Below are positions 503 to 53,068 of a stretch of 64,000 nucleotides of DNA, in pieces. A program made the position numbers and the translations under genes. The first letter of the stretch is position 1. The number at the start of each line of letters is the position of its first letter. The notes under the pieces were generated by a model. The model saw nothing but the letters and a program-made list of their open reading frames with translations, was not told where the DNA came from and did not search any database. This stretch comes from Plantibacter sp. PA-3-X8 (GTDB lineage Bacteria > Actinomycetota > Actinomycetes > Actinomycetales > Microbacteriaceae), in NCBI RefSeq assembly GCF_003856975.1, contig NZ_CP033107.1, forward strand, positions 1,426,001 to 1,490,000, read 5' to 3'.

Positions 503-559
503 TGAGTCGCCCAAAAGCGCTCGAAATCAGCCCGAAAACCGACCGATTCGGGCGACTCA
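503..559. repeat. 57-bp palindromic repeat, family A copy 1
   Basis: The element starts TGAGTCGCCC and ends GGGCGACTCA. Its interior is the most diverged of the five copies in the window; only the outer 10-bp arms pair perfectly. The right-hand TCA (557-559) is the stop codon of the TetR gene read leftwards. It lies between the 5' region of the DUF1801 gene and the 3' end of the TetR gene, so it could also act as a transcription terminator. Confidence 0.8.
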
Positions 560-1204
560 GCCGTCCAGTGCGCCCGGCCCGAGCACCGACTCGACGATGA
601 CCCGGATCGCGTACTCGCTCGTCTCGGCGAGGTCGACGTCCGCAGGGTCGATGAGCCACTGCACCTGCAGGCCGTCCATGACCGCCAGGATCGACGCCGC
701 CGCACGGTGGATCGTCTCGGGCGCATCCACGCCCCGCTCGGCGCACACCACCTCGAACGCCTCCGCGATCTCACGCCGGAGGGTCCGGTAGCGGTCGTCG
801 AAGTAGTGCCTGGCCGGGTGGTCCTCGGTCACCGACTCCGCCGACAGGACGACGAACGCCTGCACGATCCCGGCACGCTGCGCGTTCGCGGCGGCGGTGC
901 GGATCAGGTGCTTGAACAGGTCGATACCGCCGGGGATGTGCTGGTCGTCGAGGTCCTGGACGTCCGTCGCGTCGCGGTAGCTGAGCACCTCGAGGAGGAG
1001 CTGGTCCTTCGACCCGAAGTGGTGCAGGATGCCCGCCGGCGTCATGTCGACGAGCTCGGCGATGTCGATGAGGGTTCCGTTCGCGTACCCCTTGGCGCCG
1101 AAGACGTCGAGCGCCGAGCGGACGACCTCGGCTCGCCTCGCCACGGTCGCCGGGCGTGGCTGGGCTGGTCGTTTCACCGTGTTCTGTCGTTTCACCGTGC
1201 TCAT
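557..1204 (-). CDS. TetR family transcriptional regulator of the downstream uptake operon
   Basis: A 215-residue TetR-type repressor. The N-terminal helix-turn-helix spans roughly residues 22-70 (VRSALDVFGAKGYANGTL, then DIAELVDMTPAGILHHFGSK); the C-terminal half is a ligand-binding, dimerisation domain. It is divergent from the ABC/GH3 operon, and a 24-bp inverted repeat lies between the two starts, so it probably represses both its own gene and the operon until an oligosaccharide-derived inducer binds. ATG at 1204 follows GGAACGG at a usable distance. Its stop codon lies inside the adjacent 57-bp repeat. The inducer is unknown. Confidence 0.88.
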   Translation of the reverse strand: MSTVKRQNTVKRPAQPRPATVARRAEVVRSALDVFGAKGYANGTLIDIAELVDMTPAGILHHFGSKDQLLLEVLSYRDATDVQDLDDQHIPGGIDLFKHLIRTAAANAQRAGIVQAFVVLSAESVTEDHPARHYFDDRYRTLRREIAEAFEVVCAERGVDAPETIHRAAASILAVMDGLQVQWLIDPADVDLAETSEYAIRVIVESVLGPGALDG

Positions 1205-1254
1205 GGTGTCCGTTCCGCGGGGGCCTCGATGCGCCCGACACTACCGCGCTTGCC

Positions 1255-1278
1255 AACTTACTGAATGGTCAGTAAGTT
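1255..1278. promoter_or_regulatory. TetR operator overlapping the ABC/GH3 operon promoter
   Basis: A perfect inverted repeat: arms AACTTACTGA and TCAGTAAGTT separated by 4 nt (ATGG). A -35-like TTGCCA (1250-1255) and a -10-like TAAGTT (1273-1278), 17 nt apart, bracket it, so bound repressor would block polymerase on the rightward operon. The position between the divergent TetR gene and the operon makes it the obvious binding site. Confidence 0.85.
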
Positions 1279-1336
1279 ATCACCGAATCCCGACTTGCGC
1301 CGCACTGCCGCAGCGCACACCCAAGAGGAGAAAGCG

Positions 1337-2995
1337 ATGAAGCTGAGAACCCCACTGCTGGCCGCGTTCGCGGCCACAGCCCTGCTGCTCACCGGATGCA
1401 CCGGTGGCGGCGGGTCGAGCGACGGACCCGAGAGCGGCGCCGCCCTGACGATCGCGAAGCCGGACGGCTCGATCGCCACCGAATCCAACAACCCCTACGT
1501 CGGCGACTCGTCCGCGATGAAGCTCGGCTACATCAACGCGATCCTGGAGCCGCTCGCGATCGTCAACCTCGTCGACCCGAGCGCCGAGGTGAAGCCGTGG
1601 CTCGCCTCCGAGATCGCCTGGTCCGACGACTACACCTCCGTCGCGCTGACCGCCCGCGACGGCGTCACCTGGAACGACGGCGAGGCGTTCAGCGCCGACG
1701 ACATCGCGTTCACCTTCCAGCAGTTCATCGACCACCCCGAACTCGACAACTCGGCCCTCGGCCTCACCACGGTCGCGACCGAGGGCGACACCGTCACCCT
1801 GTCGTTCACGAACCCCATGTTCGTGAAGCAGGACAAGGTGCTCCTCAAGCAGATCGTCCCGAAGCACGTGTGGGAGTCCGTCGACGACCCCGCCACCTTC
1901 GAGAACCCGGAGCCCGTCGGCACCGGTCCGTACACGCTGACGAGCTTCAGCACCGAGAGCGTCGAACTCTCCGCCCGCGACGACTACTGGGGTGAGCAGC
2001 CGGCCGTGCCGACGCTCTACTACGTGTCGTACAACGACAACACGGCCCTCACCACCGCGCTCGCGAACGGCGACGCCGACTGGGCGCAGGCCTTCATCCC
2101 GAACGTGCAGTCCGCGTACCTCGACAAGGACAAGGAACACAACGTCTACTGGGCGGCCGCCGGTCTCGCCGTCGACGCGATGTTCGTGAACACGCAGACG
2201 AAGCCGTTCAACGACCCCGCGTTCCGCCAGGCGGTGAACCTCGTCATCGACCGCGAGCAGCACCAGCAGATCGCCCGTGAGGGCGGCGTCCCCGAGCTCA
2301 GCTCGGTGACCGGTCTCCCGACCCCGGCGGGCGACGCGTTCATCGCCTCCGAGTTCGAGGGCGAGGACTACACCGTCGACGCGAAGGCCGCGAAGCAGGT
2401 CCTCACCGACGCCGGCTACACCTGGGAGGACGACGTCCTCACCGACCCGTCCGGCGAGGCCGTCACCTTCACGCTGTCGGTGCCGCAGGGCTGGAACGAC
2501 TACGTGACCGGCATCAGCCTCATCGCCGACTCGGTCAAGACGCTGGGCGTCACCGCCACGGTCGACACCCCCGACCAGGACACCTGGTGGGCGGCGAAGT
2601 CGGACGGCGACTTCCAGGCGATCCTGCACTGGACCGACACCGGCGCGACGCCGTACGACCTGTACTCCGACATCATGGACGGCCGCTGGCTCGTCGCCGA
2701 GGGTGAGGCGGCCGACTTCAACTTCGGTCGGTACGACAGCCCGGAGGCCACCGCGGCGCTCGCCGCCTACGCCAACGCGACGGACGACGCCACGCGCGCA
2801 GCCGCGCTCGAGACCGTGCAGAAGCTGTTCGTGTCCGACGTCCCGGCCATGCCGATCGGCACGCGCCCGTTCATCGGTTCGTACAACACGCGGAACTACA
2901 CCGGATGGCCGAGCGAGGACGACCCCTACGCGCCCGCCGACCCGACGCAGCCGACCGCGGTCTACATCCTCACGCAGCTCAAAGCCGCGAAGTAG
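1337..2995 (+). CDS. ABC transporter substrate-binding lipoprotein (family 5, oligosaccharide/peptide type)
   Basis: A 552-residue extracytoplasmic solute-binding protein. The signal peptide ends in lipobox LTGC (about residues 18-21), followed by a Gly/Ser linker and an SBP_bac_5 fold with YTLTSFSTESVELSARDDYW typical of dipeptide/oligosaccharide binders. The ATG at 1337 is chosen over earlier in-frame starts because GAGGAGAAAGCG precedes it and the lipobox falls at the right distance. It is the first gene of an operon ending in a GH3 glucosidase, which suggests a beta-linked oligosaccharide rather than a peptide as ligand; family 5 proteins are known to bind both. Ligand is inferred. Confidence 0.9.
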   Translation: MKLRTPLLAAFAATALLLTGCTGGGGSSDGPESGAALTIAKPDGSIATESNNPYVGDSSAMKLGYINAILEPLAIVNLVDPSAEVKPWLASEIAWSDDYTSVALTARDGVTWNDGEAFSADDIAFTFQQFIDHPELDNSALGLTTVATEGDTVTLSFTNPMFVKQDKVLLKQIVPKHVWESVDDPATFENPEPVGTGPYTLTSFSTESVELSARDDYWGEQPAVPTLYYVSYNDNTALTTALANGDADWAQAFIPNVQSAYLDKDKEHNVYWAAAGLAVDAMFVNTQTKPFNDPAFRQAVNLVIDREQHQQIAREGGVPELSSVTGLPTPAGDAFIASEFEGEDYTVDAKAAKQVLTDAGYTWEDDVLTDPSGEAVTFTLSVPQGWNDYVTGISLIADSVKTLGVTATVDTPDQDTWWAAKSDGDFQAILHWTDTGATPYDLYSDIMDGRWLVAEGEAADFNFGRYDSPEATAALAAYANATDDATRAAALETVQKLFVSDVPAMPIGTRPFIGSYNTRNYTGWPSEDDPYAPADPTQPTAVYILTQLKAAK

Positions 2996-3011
2996 ACACG
3001 GGCACCACACC

Positions 3012-3043
3012 GACGGGCGGGGCGCTCATCCGCCCCGCCCGTC
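3012..3043 (+). terminator. Strong stem-loop between binding protein and ATPase genes
   Basis: A perfect 13-bp GC-rich stem (GACGGGCGGGGCG pairing with CGCCCCGCCCGTC) with a 6-nt loop starts 17 nt after the binding-protein stop. No U-tract follows, so it is more likely a partial terminator or mRNA stabiliser that keeps binding-protein transcript more abundant than the downstream transporter genes, a common arrangement in importer operons. Confidence 0.7.
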
Positions 3044-3074
3044 ACCTCCCGCATGCGCAACGGCATGCACCGCG

Positions 3075-3163
3075 ATCAGCACAGAACGGACTCATGCAGT
3101 GACCAACGACGACCTGCTGACGGTCCGGCGCCGCTCTTCATCAGCACAGAACGGACTCATGCA

Positions 3164-3189
<26 letters not shown>
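3075..3189 (+). repeat. 50-bp direct duplication of the ATPase gene start region
   Basis: Positions 3075-3124 and 3140-3189 are identical over 50 bp, separated by 15 bp (period 65 bp). Each copy contains the upstream region, a GTG start and the first codons VTNDDLLTV. Because 65 is not a multiple of three, the first copy is out of frame with the gene and runs into TGA at 3165-3167, overlapping the GTG of the second copy. Confidence 0.95.
3099..3167 (+). other. 22-codon ORF created by the duplication, coupled to the ATPase start
   Basis: GTG at 3099 (first copy of the duplicated start) opens a 22-codon frame, VTNDDLLTV then RRRSSSAQNGLMQ, ending in TGA at 3165-3167. The real gene starts GTG at 3164, giving a GTGA start/stop overlap. 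If the first start is used, ribosomes terminating there could reinitiate at the second. Whether it is translated cannot be told from sequence; it may simply be a relic of a duplication accident. Confidence 0.55.
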
Positions 3190-4826
<1,637 letters not shown>

Positions 4827-4830
<4 letters not shown>

Positions 4831-5810
4831 CCTTCTTCCTCCGTCGCGCCGCCTTCTACGCGTTCACCGCGTGGGCCGCGATCACGATCAACTTCTTCCT
4901 GCCACGGATGCTCAAGGGCGACCCGGTCTCGGCGTACATCGCGAAGAACCAGGGCCGCATCAGCCCCGAGGCGGCGGACTCGCTCCGCACCCTGTTCGGA
5001 CTCGACGCCGACAGGTCGATGCTCGAGCAGTACCTCGACTACTGGCGGTTGCTCTTCTCGGGCGACCTCGGACGGTCCTTCTCGAAGGGCCTCGCCCCGG
5101 TCACGGACGTGATCGCCGCCGCTCTGCCCTGGACCGTGGGCCTCGTCGGGATCGCGACGATCCTGTCGTTCGTCCTCGGCACGTCCATCGGCGCCCTCAT
5201 CGGGTGGCGACGCGGCAGCAAGGCGGACTTCATCGTCCCGCTGTCCACCTTCTTCTCGACGGTGCCGTACTTCTGGATGGGCCTCATCGCGATCGCGGTG
5301 TTCTCCACCCTCCTCGGCTGGTTCCCCGCCTCCCACGCCTACGGCAAGGGGTCGAGGCCCGAGTTCACGCTCGACTTCATCGGCCAGGTGATCGCGCACG
5401 GCTTCCTCCCGGCGGCGACGATCGTGCTCGCCTCACTCGGCGGTTGGATCCTCGGCATGCGCAACATGATGGTCACCGTCCTCGACGAGGACTACGTGAC
5501 CGTCGCGCAGGCGAAGGGGTTGCCGACCCGCCGGGTGCTCGTCGACTACGCGGCGCGCAACGCCATGCTGCCGCAGCTGTCGAGCTTCGCCCTGTCGCTC
5601 GGCTTCATCGTCGGCGGCACGATCGTCATGGAGATGGTCTTCTCCTACCCGGGCGTCGGCAAGCTCCTGCTCGACGCCACGACGGCGAAGGACTACCCGC
5701 TCATGCAGGGGCTCTTCCTCGTCATCACGCTCACCGTCCTCGTCGCGAACATCCTGGCCGACGTCGCCTACGCGGTGCTCGACCCCCGCACCCGCCAGAT
5801 GGAGTCCTGA
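4827..5810 (+). CDS. ABC transporter permease (DppB type)
   Basis: A 327-residue inner-membrane permease with an N-terminal TM (FYAFTAWAAITINFFLPRML), a periplasmic loop, and five further TM segments. The cytoplasmic coupling (EAA) loop is VTVAQAKGLPTRRVLVDYAARNAMLP, and the C-terminal SYPGVGKLL motif is typical of DppB/OppB. It pairs with the DppC-type permease one base downstream. Part of the same operon as the ATPases and glucosidase. Confidence 0.92.
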
Positions 5811-5811
5811 C

Positions 5812-6860
<1,049 letters not shown>

Positions 6861-6864
<4 letters not shown>

Positions 6865-9173
6865 AGACCGACACCGCCCGCCACCTCGAGGACGCCCGCT
6901 ACCTCGACGCCACGCTGCCCATTGCAGCCCGCGTCGACGACCTCGTCGAGCGGATGACCGTCCGCGAGAAGGTCGGGCAGATGATGCAGCTCGACGCCCG
7001 CGACGACATCGAGGCGCACGTGCTCGAGACGCACGTCGGCTCGATCCTGCACGCGTCACCGGAGCGTCTCGCGGTCGCCCATGAACTCGTGGGGCGGACG
7101 CGACTGCGGATCCCGCTGATCGTGGGGGAGGACTGCATCCACGGTCACTCCTTCCACCTCGGCGCGACGATCTTCCCCACGCAACTGGCCATGGCCGCGA
7201 GCTGGGACGCCGAGCTGCTCGAGCGGGTCGCCAGGGCCACGGCCGTCGAGGTCGCCGCGACGGGTGTCCACTGGACGTTCTCGCCGGTGCTCTGCATCGC
7301 CCGCGACCTCCGCTGGGGGCGTGTCGGCGAGACCTTCGGTGAGGACCCGTTCCTCATCGGCGAGCTCGCGTCCGCGATGGTGCGCGGCTACCAGGGCGAC
7401 GGCCTGTCCGACCCGACGGCCATCCTCGCGACGGCCAAGCACTTCGCCGGTTACTCCGAGACGCAGGGCGGGCGCGACGCGAGCGAGGCCGACATCTCGC
7501 CGCGCAAACTGCGGTCATGGTTCCTCCCGCCCTTCGAGCGGGTCGCCCGCGAGGGCTGCGCCAGCTTCATGCTCGGCTACCAGTCGATCGACGGGGTGCC
7601 GATCACGGTCAACGAGTGGCTGCTCAACGACGTGCTGCGCGGCGAGTGGGGCTACGAGGGGACGCTCATCACCGACTGGGACAACGTGGGCCGCATGGTG
7701 TGGGAGCAGCACGTCAGCCCTGATTACGTGCACGCCTCGGCTGCCGCGATCCGCGCCGGCAACGACATGGTGATGACCACGCCCGGCTTCTTCGAAGGCG
7801 CCCTGGAAGCGCTCGACCGCGGACTGCTCGAGGAGGCCGACCTCGATCGCGCGGTCCGTCGCATCCTCACCCTGAAGTTCGCGCTCGGCCTGTTCGAGCG
7901 CCCGCGGCACCCGGACGCCGCCGAGCAGCTCGCGGTGATCGGCTCGCCGGAGTACACCGAGCTCAACCTCGAGACCGCGCGGCGTTCCCTCGTCCTGCTC
8001 CGCAACGAGGGCGTGCTGCCGCTCGCCGGCGGCTACCGGGCGGACGAGGCAGGCAGGGCGATCGCGACGTCCGAGGCCGGGCCGCAGCGCATCGCCGTCG
8101 TGGGTCCGCTCGCGGACGACGCGCAGATGCAGCTCGGCGACTGGGCGGGCAACTCCGGCCAGGCCGGTTGGCTGCCCGACGGCCAGCCGCGCGAGATGAT
8201 CACCACCGTGGTCGACGGCCTGCGTGCGGTCGCACCCGCCGGGAGCACGGTCACGACCGCGTTCGGAGCCGACATCCTCACGCTCTCGCCCGATCCAGCG
8301 GGCGCGACCTTCCCCGACGGCCAGCCGCGTCCACCGCTCGTCACGCCCGCGGAACCCGACGATGCGCTCATCGCGGAAGCCGTCGCGCTGGCCCAGGACG
8401 CCGACGTGGTCGTCGCCGTCGTGGGCGACCGCATCGAGCTCGTGGGGGAGGGCCGCTCCACCGCGACGCTCGAGCTCATCGGCGGACAGGTGGCACTGCT
8501 CGACGCCCTGGCCGCCACCGGCAAGCCGCTCGTCGTGGTCCTGCTCGCCTCGAAGCCGCTCGTGCTGCCGCCGTCCGCGCTGCACGCCGACGCGATCGTG
8601 TGGGCGGCGAGCCCCGGCATGCAGGGTGGCCGCGCGATCGCGGAACTCCTGCTCGGTCTCATCGAGCCGACCGGTCGCCTACCGATCTCCTTCGCGCGGC
8701 ACGCCGGCCAGCAGCCGACGTACTACAACCAGATCCGCGGACAGCACGGCGACCGCTACGCCGACCTCACCCAGGAGCCTGCGTTCGCGTTCGGCGACGG
8801 ACTGTCCTACTCGAGCGTCGAGTACGGGGAGCCGCGCCTCGACCAGGTCGTCCACGGACGTGGCGACACCCTGCGCGCCGAGGTCGAGGTGCACAACAGC
8901 GGTTCGCGTCCCGTCCTCGAGACGGTGCAGGTGTACGTCAGCGACCTCGTCACCTCGGTGAGCTGGGCCGACCAGGAGCTGAAGACGTTCCGTCAGGTCG
9001 CGATCGAACCGGGCGACACGGCGACGGTCACGATCGAACTGCCCGTCGCCGACTGCTCCATCGTCGACGCCAGAGGACGGCGGGTCGTCGAAGCGGGCGA
9101 GTTCGAGCTGCGGGTGGGCGGCTCGTCACGGGCCGATGCGCTGCACGCGGTCCGCTTCACGATCGCCGACTGA
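6861..9173 (+). CDS. Glycoside hydrolase family 3 beta-glucosidase, cytoplasmic
   Basis: A 770-residue GH3 enzyme with no signal peptide. Domains in order: GH3 N barrel (about 25-335) with catalytic nucleophile Asp in LITDWDN, KHFAGY and RWGRVGETFGEDP substrate-site motifs; GH3 C domain (about 380-640); and a C-terminal fibronectin-III-like domain (about 680-760, VQVYVSDL to ELRVGGSS). It should release glucose or another terminal beta-linked sugar from oligosaccharides brought in by the linked ABC importer. Substrate (cello-, gentio-, sophoro- or xylo-oligosaccharide) cannot be decided from sequence. Confidence 0.93.
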
Positions 9174-9191
9174 GCCGTCGGCGGCCGGGAT

Positions 9192-9241
9192 GCTCACGGG
9201 GCCGCACGAAGTCCCTCCTGTTTCGTGCGGCACCCGTGAGC
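9192..9241. terminator. Bidirectional terminator between the GH3 gene and a small convergent gene
   Basis: An imperfect 50-bp palindrome: GCTCACGGG then CCGCACGAA on the left, paired with TTTCGTGCGG and CCCGTGAGC on the right, around a 9-10 nt loop. It sits 18 bp after the GH3 stop and 11 bp beyond the stop of the convergent gene, so it can serve both transcripts. Confidence 0.8.
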
Positions 9242-9252
9242 GGTCCCGAGGG

Positions 9253-9555: not shown

Positions 9556-9736
9556 GTGCTGTGCCCTTCTTCGGGCCTCCGACGATCGACACGGCGAGAT
9601 GCGCCGGTGTCGAGCGGCCAGCCTGGAGACCCACTTCAATGTCCGCCGAACAAGTGTAGGAAACTTGAAATCGTCGCTCTGAACTGTTGATTTCCAGGTG
9701 TCGGCTGCGCTATGCCAGCTTCCGCTGGCGAGGCGG

Positions 9737-45071: not shown

Positions 45072-45077
45072 CCGCGG

Positions 45078-45776: not shown

Positions 45777-45801
45777 GGTCCGACCCTATCGACGAGCCCC
45801 C

Positions 45802-45858
45802 TGAGTTGCCCGGATCGGTGCGATTCTTCGCCGAAACCGCGCAGAATCGGGCGATTCA
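45802..45858. repeat. 57-bp palindromic repeat, family A copy 2
   Basis: TGAGTTGCCC at the left end and GGGCGATTCA at the right, with less perfect interior pairing (CGGATCGGTGCG / CGCGCAGAATC). The right-hand TCA (45856-45858) is the stop of the TolB-like gene. It lies in the gap upstream of the leaderless IclR gene. Confidence 0.82.
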
Positions 45859-46740
45859 GCTCGTGATCGGGTAGGCGACGAAGGCGAACCGTGAGCTGTC
45901 GGGGGCCCAGCTGTTCACGTTGAGCGTGCCCTGGCCGCCGAACAACGGGTAGCGGCGGAGCGGGGTCGCCCAGTCGTCGGTCGAGACGAGCCGGACCTCG
46001 ACGTCGAGGTCGGCGGGGTGTCCGATCGTGCCGGCGGGGAAGGCGATGTACGAGGCCAGTCGAGCATCGGGGGAGAGGTGCGGGAACCAGTCGATGGTGT
46101 CGCTCACGACGAGCTGCTCGAGCTCGCCGCCGCCGTCCGGGATCCGCGCGAGCTGGGCATGGCCCGGGGCCGTGCCGAAGTGTTCCGTGTTGCAGAGCAG
46201 CCACCGGCCGTCGGGCGACCACTCCGGGCCGTCGAGGTGGCCGTCGCCCGTGTCGAGGACGGTGACGGGACCGCCACCTTCGACCGCCGGAGCGATCGCG
46301 AGCCGACCGGGGTGCTCGAAGCCTTCGAGTTCGACGTACGCGATCCGCGTGCCGTCGGGTGAGACGCCGTGGAGGAAGTGCCACCGGTCGTCGTCGGCGG
46401 TGAGCTTCGTGACCGGTCCGCCGGTGAGGGCACCGCGGTAGATGTGACCGTCCATCGCCGAGAGGAGTATGTGTTCGCCGTCGGGGTCGAGGACGTGGTC
46501 GTTGTTGAGCTCGGGGAGGCCGTGGAAGTCGATCGGCGTGAGCCCCGCGGTCGGGTCGTCGATCGTGAGCGCCCAGAGTCGCCCGTTGCCGTTGAGGTAC
46601 AGCGTCCGGCCGTCGAGGGACCAGTTCGGCGCTTCGATGAGGAGTTCGTCGGTCTCGAAGAGGAGGACGGGCGCGTCATCGTGCGGCCCGCCGAGCAGGA
46701 CGCTGGAACGCTGGCCGGGGACGAGGGCGCGGAAGGTCAT
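45856..46740 (-). CDS. TolB-like beta-propeller protein
   Basis: A 294-residue protein with repeated WD40-like/PD40 blades: APNWSLDGRTLYLNGNGRLW, VLDPDGEHILLSAMDGHIYR, GVSPDGTRIAYVELEGFEHP, EWSPDGRWLLCNTEHFGTAP, WAPDSSRFAFVAYPITS. There is no signal peptide or lipobox, so it is probably cytoplasmic, unlike secreted TolB. Function unknown; the pattern also occurs in prolyl-oligopeptidase-like sensors. GGAGG lies 11 nt before the ATG, and a GACGAT box ends 6 nt before it. Confidence 0.78.
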   Translation of the reverse strand: MTFRALVPGQRSSVLLGGPHDDAPVLLFETDELLIEAPNWSLDGRTLYLNGNGRLWALTIDDPTAGLTPIDFHGLPELNNDHVLDPDGEHILLSAMDGHIYRGALTGGPVTKLTADDDRWHFLHGVSPDGTRIAYVELEGFEHPGRLAIAPAVEGGGPVTVLDTGDGHLDGPEWSPDGRWLLCNTEHFGTAPGHAQLARIPDGGGELEQLVVSDTIDWFPHLSPDARLASYIAFPAGTIGHPADLDVEVRLVSTDDWATPLRRYPLFGGQGTLNVNSWAPDSSRFAFVAYPITS

Positions 46741-46762
46741 GCGCCCATCGTCCTCCAGTCCG

Positions 46763-46798
46763 TCGTGATCCGGGAGGATCGTTCCTCCCGGATCACGA
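46763..46798 (-). terminator. Stem-loop terminator after the F420-type reductase gene
   Basis: A perfect 16-bp stem (TCGTGATCCGGGAGGA with its complement) and a 4-nt loop (TCGT), 8 bp beyond the reductase stop. No U-tract follows on the minus strand, as is common in actinobacteria. Confidence 0.82.
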
Positions 46799-46806
46799 TC
46801 CGACGA

Positions 46807-47379
46807 CTACTTGACGAGCGCGAACCCCGCGGTCCAGGAGATCTTCTCCGACGCCGCCAGCGTGAGCTGCAGGAAGCCGATCGCCTCGAGTTCGTGGGCG
46901 CGCTTCAGGGACCCGGCGTCGACGGCCTCGAGGCCACCGGCGGTCACGAGCTGCTGGAGTGCGGCCTTGGCGTCGGCGTCGTCCCCGGCGATGAGGACCG
47001 TGGTGGCCACGTCGCCGACCTGCTTCGCGGCGAGGGTAGCGGCGAAGTTCGTGTTGAAGGCCTTGAGGACGTGGGAGGTCGGGAGCTTCGCCTGCAGTTC
47101 CGCTGCAGCCGAGCTGCCGGCGGGGACGGTGAGGCCGTCGAAGGTCGAGAAGTCGAGTGGGTTGGTGATGTCGACGACGACCTTGCCCGCGAGCTGGTCG
47201 GCGTACTGCTCGACGATCGTCGCGAGGGCCGGGTAGGGGACCGCGAGGACGACGACGTCGCCGGTGATCGTACCGGTCTCGGCCGATCCGAGGTGGTCGA
47301 CGGAGGCGCCGCCTGCTGCGAGGACGCCGGCGATGGCGCTGCCCATGTTGCCGGTTCCGAAGATGGTGACGTTCGTCAT
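46807..47379 (-). CDS. NADPH-dependent F420 reductase-like (NpdG/ProC-fold) protein
   Basis: A 190-residue Rossmann protein: VTIFGTGNMGSAIAGVLAAG (cofactor motif), VVVLAVPYPALATIVEQYAD and VVDITNPLDFSTFDGLTVPA fit NADP oxidoreductase, coenzyme F420-dependent. The family includes F420H2:NADP oxidoreductases and metabolite reductases; the exact partner cannot be told. ATG 47379 has GAGAAGGAGC upstream. Divergent from MarR with two operators between. Confidence 0.85.
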   Translation of the reverse strand: MTNVTIFGTGNMGSAIAGVLAAGGASVDHLGSAETGTITGDVVVLAVPYPALATIVEQYADQLAGKVVVDITNPLDFSTFDGLTVPAGSSAAAELQAKLPTSHVLKAFNTNFAATLAAKQVGDVATTVLIAGDDADAKAALQQLVTAGGLEAVDAGSLKRAHELEAIGFLQLTLAASEKISWTAGFALVK

Positions 47380-47419
47380 GACGATGCTCCTTCTCGTGGC
47401 CGCCTGGTCACGGGTCAAT

Positions 47420-47468
47420 TGGTTGTTGGTACAACTAACGTAACACCGGTTAGTTGTAGGCGCAACTA
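47420..47468. promoter_or_regulatory. Two MarR operators in the divergent reductase/MarR gap
   Basis: TGGTTGTTGGTACAACTA (47420-47437) and TAGTTGTAGGCGCAACTA (47451-47468) share GTTG-N6-CAACTA. The second overlaps a -35-like TTAGTT (47450-47455), 17 nt upstream of the MarR -10 TACGCT (47473-47478). Both point to autoregulation and control of the reductase by the adjacent MarR. Confidence 0.83.
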
Positions 47469-47484
47469 TTGCTACGCTGGAGGT

Positions 47485-47967
47485 ATGACCGAGACACGAT
47501 GGCTGAGCGGCGACGAGCAACGCTCCTGGGTGCGCTTCGCCGCGGTGCTCGAGCTCCTGCCGGCCGCGCTCGACCTCCAGCTCACGCGGGACGAGCACCT
47601 GACGCACTTCGACTACTTCACGCTCGCGATGCTGTCTGAGACCCCGGGCCGCACGTTGCGCACCTCGGCGCTCGCGGCCCGGACGAACGCGACGCTGCCT
47701 CGTTTGTCGCGGGTGCTGACGCGCTTGGAGGAGGCGGGCTTCGTGGCACGGACACCGTGCCCGGAGGATCGACGGGCGACGAACGTGACGCTCACCGATG
47801 CGGGCTGGGACAAGGTCGTCCAGGCCGCGCCGGGCCACGTCGAGCACGTGCGGTCCCTGGTCCTCGACGCACTGACGCCGGCCCAGATCGAGCAGCTCGG
47901 CGAGATCTCCGCAGCCCTCCTGACGAAGCTCGACCCCGACGGCCGGATGTTCGCCAGCGAGGCCTGA
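47485..47967 (+). CDS. MarR family transcriptional regulator
   Basis: A 160-residue winged-helix regulator: RTLRTSALAARTNATLPRLS is the recognition helix region and RVLTRLEEAGFVARTPCPED then RRATNVTLTDAGW the wing. It is divergent from the F420-type reductase with two inverted repeats between. TACGCT ends 6 nt before ATG 47485, so translation is likely leaderless. A phenolic ligand is typical of the family but not shown here. Confidence 0.9.
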   Translation: MTETRWLSGDEQRSWVRFAAVLELLPAALDLQLTRDEHLTHFDYFTLAMLSETPGRTLRTSALAARTNATLPRLSRVLTRLEEAGFVARTPCPEDRRATNVTLTDAGWDKVVQAAPGHVEHVRSLVLDALTPAQIEQLGEISAALLTKLDPDGRMFASEA

Positions 47968-48061
47968 TCTCCGTCACCTGGGGGATTCGCGGCGCTCGAG
48001 GGCTGCGTAGCGTGGGGCTCGACGTCGTGGACACCACCGAGCGCGACGCGGATCGGAGCGA

Positions 48062-48346
48062 ATGATGACCGGATCGACGCAGCCCGAACCTGCACCACAC
48101 GGGGACGAGGTGCCCCAGGACGGTCCCGCCGCGGCGGAGCCCGAGTCGACGCCGCCACCCACATCGATGAACGGCGGGACGACCTCCGTCTGGTACTTCG
48201 TCGGCGCCACGTTCCTCTTCGCCGGACCCCTGATCTTCGGTGTCGACGACTTCGGATTCTTCCGGATCATCACCCTCGTCCTCGGTGCGGTCGTCATGGT
48301 CGCCGGGTTCGTCGTGCTGCGACGCGAGAGCGGCAAGCGATCCTGA
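48062..48346 (+). CDS. Small membrane protein with two TM segments
   Basis: A 94-residue protein. A Pro/Glu-rich, probably disordered N-terminus of about 40 residues is followed by TM segments SVWYFVGATFLFAGPLIFGV and ITLVLGAVVMVAGFVVLRRE. The length and layout match small conserved actinobacterial membrane proteins of unknown role. GGAG lies 5 nt before ATG 48062 and a second ATG follows at 48065. Confidence 0.7.
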   Translation: MMTGSTQPEPAPHGDEVPQDGPAAAEPESTPPPTSMNGGTTSVWYFVGATFLFAGPLIFGVDDFGFFRIITLVLGAVVMVAGFVVLRRESGKRS

Positions 48347-48364
48347 GGGCGCTGTCGCCGGGCC

Positions 48365-48392
48365 GGCTCGCCAACCGTCCAAACGGCGAGCC
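48365..48392. terminator. Stem-loop between convergent genes
   Basis: GGCTCGCC (48365-48372) and GGCGAGCC (48385-48392) form a perfect 8-bp stem with a 12-nt loop. It lies between the small membrane protein gene and the convergent aminotransferase. Confidence 0.6.
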
Positions 48393-48438
48393 GTTCAACC
48401 GGCGAGCCGTTCAGCCCGCGAGCCGGTCAGCCCGCGAG
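48384..48438. repeat. Tandem 16-bp repeat at the aminotransferase 3' end
   Basis: Three full units (CGGCGAGCCGTTCAAC, CGGCGAGCCGTTCAGC, CCGCGAGCCGGTCAGC) and a partial fourth are adjacent. The stop codon of the aminotransferase (48427-48429) lies within the array, so repeat-number change could extend or alter the 3' end or terminator. Confidence 0.75.
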
Positions 48439-49635
48439 GAAAGCCCTGATGCCATCGAGCAGGCGGTCGACGTCCTCGTCCGAGGTGTACGGGGCGACGC
48501 CGACGCGGAGGCCGCCGACGTCCTCGAGGCCCAGCGCCGCGAACGGCTCGACCGCGTAGAACGAGCCAGCCGGTGCGAGGACGTCGCGAGCGGCGAGGAA
48601 CGCGGCCGCGTCGGCGGAACGCCTGCCCGGGAACGTCATGAACAGCGTCGCCGTGCGCTCGGCGGCTTGCGAGTGCAGCTCGACGAGCGGGCCGAGGTCG
48701 GCGAGCTCGTCCTCGATACGGGTGCGCAGCGCGAGTTCCCGCTGGTGGACGGCTGCGGCTGAGGCGACGAGACGGTCACGTCGCGTCGTGGCCTCACCGG
48801 GGTCGATCGACGCGAGCACGCCAATGGCCGCCGTCACGCCAGCCATGAGCTCGTAGGGCAGCGTGCCGAACTCGAAGCGCTCGGGCACCACGTTCGTCGA
48901 CGGCAGCAGCTTGTCGGGGTGGATCGACTCGAGCAGCGCCGGCGACGCGGCGAGGACACCGCAGTGCGGCCCGAAGAACTTGTACGGCGAGCAGACGAAG
49001 AAGTCGGCGCCGAGGGCCTCGACGTCGACGACGTGGTGGGCCGTGTAGTGGACGCCGTCGACCCAGACGAGCGCGCCGACCGCGTGCGCCCGGTCGGCGA
49101 TCGTCCGCACCGGCGGGATGGTGCCGAGGAGGTTCGACGCTGCGGTCACGGCGACGAGCCGGGTGCGCTCGCCGAGGGTCGCGTCCAGCGACTCGAGGTC
49201 GAGCTCGCCGGTCGTGGCATCGAGCTCGATCCAGCGCACCGTCGCGCCGGCGCGTTCCGCGGCCTGGACCCACGGGCGGACGTTCGCGTCGTGGTCCAGT
49301 CGGGACACCACCACCTCGTCGCCCGCCGTCCAGCCGCGGGACAGGTGCTTCGCGAAGTCGTAGGTGAGCTGGGTCGCGCTGCGACCGTAGACGATGCCGC
49401 TCGGGTCGGCGGCGAGGAGGTCCGCCATCGCAGCGCGGAAGGCGACGACCGCGTCGTCAGCCCGTCGTTCGGAGGCGACCGAGGTCCCTCGGTTCGAGAG
49501 CGGCCCGGTGAGGGTGTCGAGGATGGCCTGGCCGACGGCGAGCGGCGTCTGGGTGCCGCCGGGGCCGTCGAAGTGGGCGATGCCCGAGGCGAGGGAGGGG
49601 AACGCGGTGCGGAGGAGGGCGACGTCGAGGGTCAT
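48427..49635 (-). CDS. Class V aminotransferase, cysteine desulfurase-like
   Basis: A 402-residue PLP enzyme. FDGPGGTQTPLAVGQAILDT, RSATQLTYDFAKHLSRGWTA, DHDANVRPWVQAAERAGATV and the PLP lysine in CSPYKFFGPHCG are clear. The cysteine of true desulfurases is not obvious, so the substrate could be another amino acid. Family members (SufS-like EgtE and relatives) vary in reaction. CAGGAT ends 6 nt before the ATG at 49635 (leaderless). It is divergent from the FBP-domain leader region. Confidence 0.85.
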   Translation of the reverse strand: MTLDVALLRTAFPSLASGIAHFDGPGGTQTPLAVGQAILDTLTGPLSNRGTSVASERRADDAVVAFRAAMADLLAADPSGIVYGRSATQLTYDFAKHLSRGWTAGDEVVVSRLDHDANVRPWVQAAERAGATVRWIELDATTGELDLESLDATLGERTRLVAVTAASNLLGTIPPVRTIADRAHAVGALVWVDGVHYTAHHVVDVEALGADFFVCSPYKFFGPHCGVLAASPALLESIHPDKLLPSTNVVPERFEFGTLPYELMAGVTAAIGVLASIDPGEATTRRDRLVASAAAVHQRELALRTRIEDELADLGPLVELHSQAAERTATLFMTFPGRRSADAAAFLAARDVLAPAGSFYAVEPFAALGLEDVGGLRVGVAPYTSDEDVDRLLDGIRAFLAG

Positions 49636-49701
49636 GCGTCCATCCTGCCGCGCCGGGAGCCTGAACGGGCGGACCAGGGGAGCGAGCGCGCCATCGCTTG
49701 A

Positions 49702-49824
49702 TACAGTGCCTGTGTGTCCATGCTCATCGCTCCGCCCCGTGTCGGGCGTCTGGAGGTCGTCGGCGTCCGCAACGCCGGCCCGAGAGAGCAGCGCACCCGG
49801 TCGACCACCTCACCCACCCGGTGA
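49702..49824 (+). other. Putative promoter and 36-codon leader ORF upstream of the FBP-domain gene
   Basis: An extended -10 TGATACAGT ends at 49707, 6 nt before GTG 49714, the same spacing seen at other leaderless genes here. The GTG opens a 36-codon frame (VSMLIAPPRVGRLEVVGVRN, then AGPREQRTR) ending in TGA at 49822-49824. A perfect 7-bp stem (CCTCACC / GGTGAGG, 49808-49826) covers that stop. Two further small stems (49846-49859, 49910-49926) follow. The rest of the 327-bp gap has no gene I can support, although a long frame overlapping the FBP start by ATGA is open. Confidence 0.45.
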
Positions 49825-49962
49825 GGACGTCGGCCTCGTCCATCGCGCTCGTCCGAGCGACGACGACGGGGCCGCGCACCCTGACGCACCCACCGCAGCG
49901 CACCGACGCGCGGAGGGTCTCTCCGCCGTCTCCACGACGGCCCAGCCGAAACCGGTGAACCC

Positions 49963-50457
49963 ATGATCCCCCTGAACGAATCCCAGATCCGAGCCTCCTT
50001 CGTCAACGCATCTCGCAAGGAGGTCAGTGACGTGAGCCTTCCTGCCGACCTCGACACGCTCGACTTCGAGGCGCGTGACTTCCTCGGGTGGCGCGACAGG
50101 AAGCTGCCGCGACGCGCGTACGTGGTCGCGATCGTCGACGGCGAGCCCGTCGGCATCCTGCTCCGGCAGGCCGACGCGACGCCCCGCACGAGACCGCAGT
50201 GCGCGTGGTGCCAGGACATCACGCTCAGCAACGACGTCGTGTTCTACAGCGCGAAGCGCGCCGGTCAGGCAGGCAAGAACGGCGACACCGTCGGCACACT
50301 CGTCTGCGCCGACTTCCAGTGCTCGGCCAACGTGCGGAAGCTGCCGCCGCTCGCCTACGTCGGTTTCGACGCGGAGGCGGCCCGCCAGGAGCGCATCGCG
50401 ACGCTCAGCGTCCGCGCCGCGTCCTTCGCCTCCTCGGTCCTGAACGGCGTCGGCTGA
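49963..50457 (+). CDS. FBP-domain (FusB-like EF-G-binding type) protein
   Basis: A 164-residue protein. The C-terminal treble-clef zinc module is marked by CAWCQDITL and LVCADFQCSANVRKLPPLAY (four Cys), characteristic of the FBP C-terminal domain. FusB/C proteins of this fold bind elongation factor G and confer fusidic-acid resistance; chromosomal relatives in actinobacteria may help ribosome release or translation. It is shorter than FusB and has little of the N-terminal helical domain. The ribosome-binding site is weak; it follows a leader region. Confidence 0.82.
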   Translation: MIPLNESQIRASFVNASRKEVSDVSLPADLDTLDFEARDFLGWRDRKLPRRAYVVAIVDGEPVGILLRQADATPRTRPQCAWCQDITLSNDVVFYSAKRAGQAGKNGDTVGTLVCADFQCSANVRKLPPLAYVGFDAEAARQERIATLSVRAASFASSVLNGVG

Positions 50458-50470
50458 GCTCCTGACCCGC

Positions 50471-50527
50471 TGAGTCGCCCGGATCTGCACGAAATCAGCC
50501 CGTTTTCGTGCAGATCCGGGCGATTCA
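50471..50527. repeat. 57-bp palindromic repeat, family A copy 3
   Basis: The cleanest copy: TGAGTCGCCCGGATCTGCAC and a near-perfect reverse complement, with arms of about 24 bp and an 8-nt loop. The right-hand TCA (50525-50527) is the stop of the TetR gene. It lies 13 bp beyond the FBP-gene stop. Confidence 0.9.
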
Positions 50528-51130
50528 AGCCTCGGGAGTGAGGCCCCGCCAGAAGAGGTCGACGGCGCTCGTCACGAGGTCGTCGGCCGGGACGCCGTCA
50601 AGCAGGCCGCCAGAGGCGAGTACGGCGATGCCGTGGAAGGTCGCGAAGGCGACGAGCGCGATGTGGTGCGGATCGCCGGCGGTGATCGCGCGGATCTCCT
50701 GCCCGGTGGTGACGACCCGGACGACGATCTCCATCGAGGCGTGACCGGCGGCGAGCAGCTCCTCCCGGGCATCGGGCGCGTGCTTGAGGCCGAACATGAG
50801 CGAGAGGAGCGTCGGCTGAGCGAGCGCGAAGCCGACATACGCTCGGGCCAGTGCGTCGACCTGTTCACGGGCCCCTGACGACGAGGTGACCTCGGCTCCG
50901 GTCGCCCGCTCGAGCGACGCGGAGAGGCGACGGAAACCGTCTTCGGCGAGCGCGTCGAGGAGGGCCTGCTTGTCGCGGAAATGGCGGCTCGGTGCCGCGT
51001 GGCTGACGCCGGCGTCACGGGCCAGTCGGCGCAGCGACAGCTCGTCGACGCCGTCCGTCTCGAGACTGGCTGCGGCGGCCTCGAGGAGGGTCCGGCGGAG
51101 GTCTCCGTGGTGATAGGGCTGAGCTGGCAC
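50525..51130 (-). CDS. TetR family transcriptional regulator (WHG-domain type)
   Basis: A 201-residue regulator. HTH about 10-60: YHHGDLRRTLLEAAAASLET, LSLRRLARDAGVSHAAPSRH, FRDKQALLDALA. The C-terminus ends DLFWRGLTPEA; the C-terminal domain includes a TetR_C_33/WHG-like pattern. It is divergent from the SDR gene with two operators in between. TAGGCT ends 6 nt before GTG 51130 (leaderless). Its stop lies in a family-A repeat. Confidence 0.88.
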   Translation of the reverse strand: MPAQPYHHGDLRRTLLEAAAASLETDGVDELSLRRLARDAGVSHAAPSRHFRDKQALLDALAEDGFRRLSASLERATGAEVTSSSGAREQVDALARAYVGFALAQPTLLSLMFGLKHAPDAREELLAAGHASMEIVVRVVTTGQEIRAITAGDPHHIALVAFATFHGIAVLASGGLLDGVPADDLVTSAVDLFWRGLTPEA

Positions 51131-51148
51131 GAGACGAGCCTACCGCCA

Positions 51149-51198
51149 TGTTGACATTGACAACACGAGCGAACACGGCAATGATGTCACTGACAACA
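51149..51198. promoter_or_regulatory. Two TetR operators between the divergent TetR and SDR genes
   Basis: TGTTGACATTGACAACA (51149-51165) and TGATGTCACTGACAACA (51182-51198) are 17-bp inverted repeats with consensus TGTTGTCAnTGACAACA, centres 33 bp apart. The first covers the -35/spacer of both genes and contains TTGACA (51157-51162) for the SDR; the second overlaps its -10-like AATGAT (51180-51185). Confidence 0.85.
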
Positions 51199-51228
51199 TT
51201 CGTGCACCGCCAGCTGAAGGATTCCCCC

Positions 51229-52029
51229 ATGACACTCGATCTCCGCGGTGGCACCGCACTCATCACGGGCGCGAGCTCCGGCCTCGGCGTCGAGTTCGCC
51301 AGACGGTTCGCGAACCGCGGGTCGAACCTGGTGCTCGTCGCCAGGCGCGCGGATCGCCTCGAGGCGCTGGCGGCCGAACTCCGGTCCGCCTCGGGTGTCG
51401 AGGTCACGGTCGTGCCGGCCGACCTCGGCGTCGCGGGTGCCGCCGAGTCACTCCACGAGGAGCTGGATCGCCGCGGCATCCGGATCACCTCGCTCGTCAA
51501 CAACGCCGGGTTCGGCAGCCACGGTGCCTTCGACCAGGCGGACGCGGAGCGCATGACGGGAGAGATCCAACTCAACGTCGGGACGCTCGTCGGGCTCACG
51601 CGTGCATTCATGCCGCAGCTGCTCGAGGGCTCCGGCGCCCTGGTGACGGTCGCGAGCACCGCTGCCTACCAGCCGACGCCGGGCATGGCTGTGTACGGCG
51701 CGACGAAGGCGTTCGTGCTGAGCTTCACCGAGGCGCTCTGGGCAGAGGCCCGTGGCACCGGGCTGCGGGTGCTCGCCGTGAGCCCCGGGCCGACCAAGAC
51801 CGAATTCTTCGACGTCGTCGGGAGCGAAGACGCTGCCGTCGGACGCAAGCAGACGAGCGCGCAGGTCATGGATACCGCGTTCCGCGCGCTCGACCGGGCT
51901 GACGGTGGCCCCAGTGTCGTGTCCGGCCGCAGCAACCACCTCACCGCGCTCGCGACCCGGCTGCTGTCGCGTCGCACGCTCGCGCGCACGAGCGCCCGCG
52001 TCCTCGGCGGCGTGCGGATGGCCCGCTGA
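51229..52029 (+). CDS. SDR family oxidoreductase
   Basis: A 266-residue classical SDR: ALITGASSGLGVEFARRFAN (cofactor), LVNNAGFGSHGAFDQADAER, the catalytic Ser in VASTAAYQPT, Tyr-x3-Lys in YGATK, and VSPGPTKTEFF. It belongs to the DltE/acyl-CoA-like SDR branch. ATG 51229 has GAAGGA 7 nt upstream; earlier in-frame ATGs would run through the operators. It is the likely target of the divergent TetR. Confidence 0.9.
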   Translation: MTLDLRGGTALITGASSGLGVEFARRFANRGSNLVLVARRADRLEALAAELRSASGVEVTVVPADLGVAGAAESLHEELDRRGIRITSLVNNAGFGSHGAFDQADAERMTGEIQLNVGTLVGLTRAFMPQLLEGSGALVTVASTAAYQPTPGMAVYGATKAFVLSFTEALWAEARGTGLRVLAVSPGPTKTEFFDVVGSEDAAVGRKQTSAQVMDTAFRALDRADGGPSVVSGRSNHLTALATRLLSRRTLARTSARVLGGVRMAR

Positions 52030-52083
52030 GTCGCCCGGATCTGCACGAAATTCGCCCGCTTTCGCGCAGATTCGGGCGACTCA
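52027..52083. repeat. 57-bp palindromic repeat, family A copy 4
   Basis: TGAGTCGCCCGGATCTGCAC at the left end, near-complement at the right. Both ends serve as stop codons: TGA 52027-52029 ends the SDR gene and TCA 52081-52083 ends the convergent DUF559-type gene, so the whole repeat is the shared 3' junction. Confidence 0.9.
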
Positions 52084-52956
52084 GCGGCCGGCGAGGGCGG
52101 CGCGCACCGAGGCGACGACGGCGCGGAGGTCGCGGAGATCGTCGGCCGTCAGCTCGATGACCGTCCAACCCGCGGCCCGCAGGCGGTTGGAGCGAGCGCG
52201 GTCCTTGCGCCACCGGTCGACCTCGACCCGGTGGTAGTCGCCCTGGTACTCGATGACGATCCGCGCTGCACGGTGACAGAGGTCGGCGCGTGCGAGGAAC
52301 GAGCCGTTCGCCGCCCGGATCTCCTGGTTCGGTTCGAAGCCGGTGACGCCGCCGCGCACCAGCGCGACGCGGACGATGGACTCGGGCGGTGATTCCGCGC
52401 GGTGATCGAGCAGCGGGAGTGCGGCGGCGATGGCTCCACGGCCGCGCCGGCTCGGATAGCGGGCTGCAGCCTCCTCCAACTCGGCCAGGCCTGCGGTACT
52501 CGTCCGAAGCAGATGGTCGCCTGTTGCGACGAGATCGGCGAGCGGGAGCGTCGCGGCAAGGTCCAGCCACGTTCGAACCGGACTCGTCAGCCGGATGCCG
52601 CCCTGGACGATCACGTCGTCCTCGTCATCGATCGTGACCGACCGGCCGGCGATCCCGGCGGCGTGTGGAGCGCGGGCCGGCGCGGCCACGGCGAGGTCGA
52701 GGCGTTCCGGGGTGGAGAGCCGGCACGGGAGCGGCAGGCCGAGGAGGAGCGCAGCGGTCGGACCACAGACGAAGACCTGCTCGGACAGGCGGTGGAGGAA
52801 CGCACGACAGTGATCCTCGACCGTCTCCACCGGGCGGGTGGACCGGATGCCGTGACCCGGCTTCTCGAGTCGACGACTGCGGAGTTCGCCGGGTGTCATC
52901 CCGCTGCGGAGCGCGTCGCCGACGAGGAACGGTCCGTCCGGAGGCTCAAGGGGCAT
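52081..52956 (-). CDS. DUF559 (Vsr-fold, PD-(D/E)XK nuclease-like) protein
   Basis: A 291-residue protein. The N-terminal region resembles AbiEi-type antitoxin-like domains of actinobacteria (FLVGDALRSGMTPGELRSRR); the C-terminal domain has the nuclease core FLARADLCHRAARIVIEYQG, in which Asp and Glu-x-Gln are the putative active-site residues, then HRVEVDRWRKDRARSNRLRA and WTVIELTADDL. These proteins are abundant and of unknown target. CACAGT ends 6 nt before the ATG. Its stop is within a family-A repeat. Confidence 0.8.
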   Translation of the reverse strand: MPLEPPDGPFLVGDALRSGMTPGELRSRRLEKPGHGIRSTRPVETVEDHCRAFLHRLSEQVFVCGPTAALLLGLPLPCRLSTPERLDLAVAAPARAPHAAGIAGRSVTIDDEDDVIVQGGIRLTSPVRTWLDLAATLPLADLVATGDHLLRTSTAGLAELEEAAARYPSRRGRGAIAAALPLLDHRAESPPESIVRVALVRGGVTGFEPNQEIRAANGSFLARADLCHRAARIVIEYQGDYHRVEVDRWRKDRARSNRLRAAGWTVIELTADDLRDLRAVVASVRAALAGR

Positions 52957-53011
52957 CCCTTCACTGTGCCTGCACCGAGTGGTTCCCCGTCCACGTTCTC
53001 CACAGGTCCGC

Positions 53012-53068
53012 TGAGTCGCCCGGATCTGCGCGAAATACCGTCGATTTCGCGCAGATCCGGGCGACTCA
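53012..53068. repeat. 57-bp palindromic repeat, family A copy 5
   Basis: TGAGTCGCCCGGATCTGCGC on the left with its near-complement on the right; about 24-bp arms. The right-hand TCA (53066-53068) is the stop of the DeoR/LacI-hybrid regulator gene. Confidence 0.9.

Follow-up and report, generated by a model that had tools for sequence, protein, structure and literature searches.

A dispersed 57-bp palindrome family of Plantibacter and an AbiEi-DUF559 endonuclease gene as its candidate partner

Introduction

The window, a 64,000-nt stretch of the 4.08-Mb genome of Plantibacter sp. PA-3-X8, carries five copies of a 57-bp palindrome, and a gene for a protein with an AbiEi-like part and a DUF559 nuclease part of the EDxHD type lies between two of them. 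This palindrome is probably the dimeric recognition site of the AbiEi-DUF559 endonuclease encoded between its copies, and the pair would then be an analogue, with an unrelated enzyme, of the REPtrons, in which repetitive extragenic palindromes (REPs) go together with a REP-associated tyrosine transposase (RAYT). The parts of this reading differ in strength: we are highly confident that the nuclease gene and the palindromes belong together, it is likely from the sequences compared that the protein binds the palindromes, and the chances that it cuts them are about even.

REP-like palindromes are common bacterial repeats and, to our knowledge, RAYT is the only partner enzyme known for them. The system considered here is REP-like, its likely partner being an AbiEi-EDxHD endonuclease in place of RAYT, and it may represent an undescribed kind of DNA system that spreads itself or swaps genes and has another enzyme where a transposase is usual. 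In Microbacteriaceae, Micrococcaceae and Coriobacteriia, an unrelated nuclease repeatedly occupies the genomic position of RAYT, and the palindrome differs from case to case. In the titles and abstract openings of the open-licence literature searched, no connection between AbiEi or DUF559 genes and dispersed palindromes was found. With such a candidate partner, the origin and upkeep of 'orphan' palindromes become directly testable, DUF559/AbiEi fusion proteins gain a concrete candidate substrate, and the arrangement points to a new joint for gene gain and loss.

The nuclease gene and its flanking palindromes

Seven Plantibacter genomes (G000-G006, G000 being that of the window) were all searched for the element, by which we mean the 57-bp palindrome family of the window. 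Clustering of the genes that adjoin its copies yielded two families that recur in at least three genera, namely LacI-type regulators in four and the nuclease gene in three. Intact nuclease genes were found in ten genomes of three GTDB genera, in fetched DNA that was mostly element-centred; in all ten the gene lies between two elements, the 3' element ends on its stop codon, and the other copy stands 55-128 bp ahead of the called start codon. The gene calls come from a codon-usage caller trained on Plantibacter, not from an annotation, and this caller missed or misplaced genes in other genera (L176, L256; L-numbers denote individual fetched DNA stretches). In a fourth genus, decayed nuclease genes (G261, G334) also lie between elements, with the stop a few bases outside. 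A six-frame scan of 1.71 Mb, much of which had been fetched because it bears elements, used a nuclease profile that included two N-terminally over-extended reading frames (G003, G288) and, outside such units, yielded a single weak match, in G035; that match is flanked by palindromes of a different sequence, CGTGTTACTCGAAAC, a looser third copy of which is close by. A preliminary description of the window had correctly named a DUF559 gene as a neighbour of the palindromes, its position between two copies having gone unremarked.

The window protein matches DUF559 above the curated cut-off and MTES_1575 below it. Among 57 aligned homologues (from 132 found), 51 match DUF559, 46 match MTES_1575 and 39 match a PADLOC AbiEi model (best E 5.5e-20), and the Pfam models AbiEi_1 and AbiEi_4 match two and one of them, respectively. 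D225, E236, G239, D252 and R255 are invariant in this alignment and H242 is nearly so. Among PDB entries the nuclease domain matches 3r3p best ('Mobile intron protein', E 1.7e-7), a structure that we take to be that of the EDxHD homing endonuclease I-Bth0305I. In four Plantibacter species the nonsynonymous divergence of the gene (dN, 0.019-0.032) is well under the synonymous divergence (dS, 0.11-0.17), which indicates that the protein is under selection. The neighbours at the window locus are SDR, TetR and DeoR/LacI-type genes, and no DUF1814 (AbiEii) toxin gene stands beside the nuclease gene there. Carriage on phages or plasmids was considered and rejected: searches returned no phage match and one weak plasmid match for the window protein and no plasmid match for the element, and on viral contigs no relative was confirmed.

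Table 1. Coordinates of the palindromes, genes and segments discussed (window positions unless a stretch or genome is named)
Feature	Position	Strand	Remarks
Palindrome copy 1	503..559	none	57 bp; right-end TCA is the stop of a TetR gene, 557-1204 (-)
Palindrome copy 2	45802..45858	none	57 bp; right end is the stop of a TolB/PD40-like gene, 45856-46740 (-)
Palindrome copy 3	50471..50527	none	Right end is the stop of a TetR gene, 50525-51130 (-); left border of the TetR-SDR segment
TetR-SDR segment	50471..52083	none	Present in G000 and G001; single palindrome instead in G003 and G006
SDR (short-chain dehydrogenase) gene	51148..52029	+	Ends on copy 4; start by the codon-usage caller 51181
Palindrome copy 4	52027..52083	none	Left end is the SDR stop, right end the nuclease-gene stop; 3' member of the pair
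Palindrome-nuclease-palindrome unit (REPtron-like)	52027..53068	none	The flanks of the unit in G003 enclose only one palindrome in G005
AbiEi-like + DUF559/MTES_1575 (EDxHD-type) endonuclease gene	52081..52956	-	291 aa; proposed partner of the palindrome
Palindrome copy 5	53012..53068	none	25-bp perfect arms; 5' member of the pair round the nuclease gene, 55 bp ahead of its start codon
DeoR-type helix-turn-helix / periplasmic-binding-like regulator	53066..54214	-	Ends on copy 5
Second AbiEi-DUF559 gene	G000:2,004,827-2,005,804 (L290:4828-5805)		Palindromes at L290:4622-4661 and 5968-6007
Homologue L298			Palindromes of 57/57 bp on the two sides
Homologue L299			Palindromes of 50/69 bp on the two sides
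Homologue L300			66-bp palindrome downstream, degenerate relative upstream
Homologue L302			Several palindromes of 55-65 bp on each side

Distant homologues with palindromes of their own

Since the DNA fetched earlier had in large part been chosen for its elements, a less biased sample of 340 kb was taken at fixed places of the G000 genome, and it contained one further AbiEi-DUF559 homologue (L290, E 2.7e-18). The palindromes beside this second gene share the half-site GCGTGAGCGCGGGTC and belong to a third, larger family that is dispersed through the chromosome, with further copies at L282:10398, L282:11489 and L289:13034. When 258 genes were ranked by a score for palindromes on both sides, L290 came first at 30, the next gene reached 17, and 255 scored 0.

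Protein similarity led to four more homologues in a plasmid collection, these being every distinct place found: two in Arthrobacter sp. StoSoilB13, one in Arthrobacter sp. ERGS1:01 and one in Collinsella aerofaciens. The distant homologues, selected by their protein only, thus number five, from Plantibacter, Arthrobacter and Collinsella; each of them has its own, similar repeats on both sides (Table 1), and the 3' palindrome overlaps the gene end in all three Arthrobacter genes. These palindromes are dispersed as well, at 11, 4, 40 and 11 places that lie in the same organism only (both strands counted, so that copies are fewer). In a plain flank-to-flank alignment the lowest score of the five homologues (62) was reached by 3 of 258 random genes, which comprise L290 itself, a gene between two dispersed copies of the L290 palindrome and one other. 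Of the five, L299, L300 and L290 show clear AbiEi matches and L298 a modest one, and the Collinsella protein has none. In strain StoSoilB13, a copy from the palindrome family of the plasmid-1 nuclease gene stands near the plasmid-2 nuclease gene (L298:5278-5347 of NZ_AP024649.1; L300:3619-3684 of NZ_AP024648.1), and two palindrome families coexist in this strain.

A wider class can be proposed on this basis, if tentatively and at slightly less than even chances: Actinomycetota would harbour AbiEi-EDxHD endonuclease genes, each with its own dispersed palindromes of about 40-70 bp that serve as operator, homing target and recombination joint, and these genes would spread themselves and move neighbouring genes as cassettes. 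If true, such a class would give transposase-less palindromic repeats a mover.

Extent and conservation of the palindrome family

The preliminary description reported five copies of exactly 57 bp, and their coordinates, lengths and ends all proved right, as did its remark that copy 1 is the most diverged, this copy being the weakest of the five against both models. It had also called for a genome search. With the inner gap left free between 25 and 55 bases, the end pattern occurs at 10 places of the G000 genome, each found on both strands and all of 57 bp, and a reversed control pattern occurs at none in the whole 4.08 Mb; a structure model gives 19 places at E <= 3e-4, of which 18 are of 57 bp and one of 56. 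The window copies are not chance matches: in a scan of 804 kb (the window, the 340-kb sample and 400 kb of the element-poor G004 and G002), with a model that two of the window copies had helped to build, the five reached 35-73 bits, against 31 bits for the best of all other places, which lies in G004. Their dyad symmetry is uneven, at 34 to 50 of the 57 positions. The window also holds, at 46763-46798, a perfect 16-bp inverted repeat with a 4-nt loop that is not of this family.

Among the matches listed, 109 Plantibacter places were fetched with their flanks, and 96 of them are exactly 57 bp long, in keeping with the uniform length that had been described. These 96 copies define the consensus and give 15-22 copies in each of five species (18, 22, 19, 15 and 21, with 1 more in G002). 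The 13 places of other lengths were left out of the consensus and the ortholog counts; by eye, several are other repeats and a few are genuine copies that carry an indel or were matched over part of their length. The search of the genus found 32-47 matches, counted on both strands, in each of the four other copy-rich species, 7-8 in G002 and one in G004; of the matches in these last two genomes, by eye only a pair of G002 copies, both at the same locus, are members of the family. Most Plantibacter loci are common to three to five species. A minor Plantibacter repeat has hairpins of the type TTCGCCCA...TGGGCGAA (G001:C3:353559, G002:C1:1541310, G006:C9:19484), and two 57-bp copies (G000:1109867 and G001:C8:551680) have one end of this type, as in a hybrid.

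The family extends to other genera of the Microbacteriaceae, against the possibility that the similarity might be confined to the window. At E <= 1e-5, the Plantibacter model matches at least 63 of 398 genomes and at least 27 of 85 genera, own genus included, with only 14 candidates per genome scored and matches inspected where they were fetched. Among the matches listed, 84 copies from eight genomes of other genera were fetched; 19 measure 57 bp, 49 measure 58 bp, 15 measure 59 bp and one 56 bp, and six of the eight genomes have one length each, with both 59 and 58 bp in G261 and one odd copy in G146. Ends near YGAGTYGCCC are mostly kept, the interiors of the arms are lineage-specific, and the pairs A3-T56 and G17-C42 are kept in all 24 aligned sequences. 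Comparison with Rfam gave matches below the gathering scores only, eight of nine of them to microRNA models. Matches to the 57-bp end pattern in Desulfobacteraceae, Polaromonas and Acidimicrobiia were set aside, as their interiors are unrelated. The metagenome-assembled genome LH_M58 of the Desulfobacteraceae (L046, L049, L057, L063, L066) has a palindromic repeat family of its own, GGCGATTCGTGAATCGCCCC, in which only the end pattern matches.

Both arms of the 96 Plantibacter copies share a half-site of about CRC-TGAGTYGCCCGRAWCTGYNCG. Between orthologous copies (26 groups) the divergence is 0.057 at motif positions, 0.183 at other element positions and 0.164 in the flanks, and in the five groups with all five species the values are 0.073, 0.147 and 0.143, respectively, although this conservation could partly reflect the search model, which would miss badly decayed copies. 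Pairing of the inner arms within each Plantibacter genome is slightly above column expectation (z 0.8-1.7). What is kept seems to be each half-site and the fixed distance between them, a pattern typical of a dimeric DNA-binding protein and not of an RNA hairpin. In one copy (G001:C8:786395), a short run of bases in one arm differs from the orthologue G000:1380374 and makes this arm a perfect complement of the other, a change that resembles quasi-palindrome correction during replication.

Placement at gene ends

The palindromes of Plantibacter show a REP-like dispersal, with many intergenic copies, mostly at gene 3' ends. In the window, the terminal TGA is, as had been described, the stop codon of the abutting gene, exactly so for six of the seven gene 3' ends that face a copy, and copy 4 indeed ends two convergent genes. 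Across Plantibacter, 125 gene 3' ends face 57-bp copies: 70 stop exactly on the terminal TGA, 50 stop 4-20 bp before the copy, one within 3 bp and four further off, and none runs into the copy. Called start codons keep a distance of 25 bp or more. The overlap with stop codons is largely peculiar to Plantibacter: it occurs at only 7 of 117 gene ends in the eight genomes of other genera, and five of these 7 belong to the nuclease gene. At six of the Plantibacter loci G004 has no element, and neither has G002 at the three of these six that were fetched. In G004, three of the neighbouring genes stop at the same aligned place and a fourth, by manual reading, at the same codon count; since these stops are unchanged without the element, the element occupies gene ends that were already there. 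Stop codons provided by the ends of REPs have been described in other bacteria, for example for GTAG REPs (excerpt of PMC3733652).

Gene-end placement would also be expected of bidirectional transcription terminators, that is, of RNA hairpins that provide stop codons in addition, with the nuclease gene as a chance neighbour. In line with this, 42 of the 96 Plantibacter copies lie between convergent genes, 121 of the 125 gene 3' ends are within 20 bp of a copy, and for nine of the ten window-copy strands the fold is better than that of shuffled sequences (z -3.4 to -11.2). Pairs also covary across genera (93.0% of cells paired against 70.1% in shuffles, with 139 cells changed on both sides against 43), but a structure model had served to find these copies, which builds part of the covariation in, and lineage-specific half-sites would likewise produce it. 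Several observations argue against terminators: the arms within single Plantibacter genomes pair little above column expectation, and those of G261 and G198 not above it; one window-copy strand barely folds (z -1.4); the flanks of the Plantibacter copies inspected have no T run, so that conserved pairing followed by a U run was not found there; and 13 of the 96 copies, most of them at one locus, lie between divergent genes. A terminator, moreover, does not need a fixed length of 57 bp and leaves the nuclease gene between two copies in several genera unexplained. We regard it as quite unlikely, and the dual terminator and stop device of the preliminary description is not favoured, given the slight arm pairing in Plantibacter and the rarity of stop overlap elsewhere except at the nuclease gene.

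Gene cassettes and chromosomal distribution

Presence and absence of DNA between palindromes is cleanly bounded at two loci. Between flanks that the two genomes share, G003 has an element, the nuclease gene and a second element and G005 a single element, and the alignments end within 1 bp of the element ends. Similarly, a 2.2-kb segment with a second element in G000 (G000:1109867-1112066) corresponds to one element in G005, with ends sharp to 2 bp. The borders of the TetR-SDR segment (Table 1) were less sharp in the one alignment made (G006/G000), and at copy 2 there is no element at the same place in G005, G004 and G002. Such palindrome-bounded differences indicate that recombination at or beside the element adds or removes the DNA between two copies. 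Another variable locus (G000:278719 and its orthologues L072, L089, L110, L114, L136 and L139) has one to three elements between a gene recognised by eye as AlkD-like and its divergent neighbour; the inserts differ by species (methyltransferase-like, or TetR plus reductase-like), and this locus holds the only elements found in G002.

The same differences could in principle arise if RecA recombined the dispersed palindromes as passive substrates and the nuclease took no part. A similar sequence of 57 bp could support rare recombination, and segments without a nuclease gene, namely the 2.2-kb one and the TetR-SDR segment, behave alike. However, neither the recurrence of the nuclease gene between copies across genera nor the conservation of the half-sites is explained in this way, and we consider passive exchange distinctly improbable.

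The loci are unevenly spread over the chromosome. In G005, an arc of 1.23 Mb across the contig start, about 29% of the chromosome, contains 13 of 14 element loci, a crowding reached in one of 20,000 simulations, and the contig start carries dnaA, recognised by eye. This distribution would suit a role in chromosome organisation at the origin, with the palindrome as an ori counterpart of matS, all the more as such a 1.23-Mb arc holds 18 of 19 copies in G000 (0 of 20,000 simulations). The G000 signal is weaker once it is thinned for local clusters (155 of 20,000), though, and G002 and G004 are nearly or wholly without sites, so that an organising role has very little to recommend it.

Proposed mechanism and its standing

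In the model that we propose, the 57-bp palindrome would be a double-stranded dyad recognition site of two inverted half-sites of about 25 bp, about 7 bp apart, which the AbiEi-like part of the 52081-52956 protein would bind as a dimer. The 5' copy ahead of the start codon would act as operator, and the 3' copy would close the unit on the nuclease gene's own stop codon. The EDxHD-type nuclease part may then cut or nick such sites, and repair that uses another copy, on the same or on incoming DNA, could insert, delete or swap the intervening DNA, which would be the nuclease gene itself together with hitch-hiking gene cassettes. The other 17 places in the G000 genome would be solo sites that belong to this family, and the emergence of new ones is, like binding and cleavage, inferred.

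A narrower explanation keeps the operator and drops the rest: the AbiEi-DUF559 protein would be an autoregulated defence or regulatory protein, the dispersed sites would be regulated or would titrate it, and the nuclease would never act there. The distance of the 5' copy from the start codon fits this, as do the copies in divergent promoters, and AbiEi-type antitoxins autorepress from inverted repeats (excerpt of PMC7319586). Most copies, however, lie at gene 3' ends and not in promoters, and a second copy at the stop codon as well as clean, palindrome-bounded presence and absence of cassettes would be unexpected, which makes this explanation unlikely.

Several observations weigh against the palindrome as target of the endonuclease. 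On the side of the protein, the AbiEi match of the window protein itself is weak (E 0.013), and the nuclease matches of the distant homologues are weak as well (E 0.02 to 1e-6, below curated cut-offs). LacI-type genes, a very common regulator family, adjoin copies in one genus more than the nuclease gene does, and none of the copy neighbours retrieved in G146 (10 of about 25 copies) and G248 (15 of about 22) is such a nuclease. The unit is missing from G005 at this locus (elsewhere in that genome no search for the gene was made), and the 15 copies of G005 are no more decayed than those of other genomes (2.07 mismatches of 36 against 2.2-2.9). Some pairing is of the kind given by a hairpin, as 29 Plantibacter loci show a weak significant excess (reached by 12 of 2000 shuffles) and the arms covary within the genomes G213, G248 and G146. 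Orthologous sites without the element show other short spacers and no clean target-site duplication. Finally, the nuclease would face about 19 sites in its own chromosome and would need tight control, nicking, or a structure or state requirement, and, unlike in classical homing, insertion leaves intact sites on both sides of the gene.

Comparison with known systems

Mycobacterial MIRUs (mycobacterial interspersed repetitive units) are small intergenic repeats that overlap stop codons, as the present ones do, but they are not palindromic, and we know of no such partner gene for them. The core sites of integron attC, GTTRRRY/RYYYAAC, go with an integrase; attC-type ends were not seen in the Plantibacter copies inspected by eye, no integrase search having been made.

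The REP/REPIN and RAYT REPtrons, with their IS200/IS605-like TnpA_REP enzyme, are alike in their short dispersed palindromes with 3'-end placement and stop overlap, in the nuclease or transposase gene flanked by copies, and in having enzyme genes specific to each repeat (excerpt of PMC3733652). In the present system, however, the enzyme combines AbiEi with an EDxHD-type nuclease instead of being a Y1 HUH transposase, and the sites are 56-59 bp long, with long double half-sites, no GTAG tag and lineage-specific arms with similar ends. The likeness in size, dispersal, gene-end placement and flanked gene could nevertheless be taken to mean that these are ordinary REP/REPIN elements mobilised by RAYT, as in gammaproteobacteria. 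The Y1_Tnp domain (PF01797) was found in none of the seven Plantibacter genomes and in only 3 of 398 genomes of the family, with 5 of 14 control genomes positive, and the consensus of the 96 copies ends in CRC-TGAGTYGCCC, with neither a GTAG nor a CGTC tag. RAYT as the mover was rejected on its near-absence, and ordinary RAYT-driven REPs are scarcely credible here. Of the mobile or maintained REP/MITE-like element (MITE, miniature inverted-repeat transposable element) in the preliminary description, the dispersal, fixed length, 3'-end placement, presence and absence, and kept half-sites hold, and the RAYT suggested with it is absent. CGTC-tagged REPs are also dispersed palindromes without a dedicated transposase, the mover of which is given as not identified (excerpt of PMC3733652); the present family differs in having no CGTC tag and in having a candidate partner gene.

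The two parts of the candidate partner each have a known relative. Type IV toxin-antitoxin systems share the AbiEi-like domain and the paired inverted repeats as sites: the AbiEi antitoxin binds two 23-bp inverted repeats 3 bp apart, and the pairs of the M. tuberculosis relative are 13 bp apart (excerpt of PMC7319586). Here, in contrast, the domain is fused to a nuclease, no AbiEii/DUF1814 toxin accompanies the window gene, and the sites are dispersed. EDxHD enzymes of the I-Bth0305I/Vsr type share a related catalytic domain with conserved acidic residues and a histidine, and I-Bth0305I, a homing enzyme, binds its target of nearly 60 bp as a dimer (excerpt of PMC3943268). The present system differs from EDxHD homing in that no intron or intein was seen and the gene stands between two intact sites, not inside one, and from I-Bth0305I in its AbiEi-like DNA-binding part. 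Two half-sites of about 25 bp, 7 bp apart, would fit both the AbiEi sites and the I-Bth0305I target.

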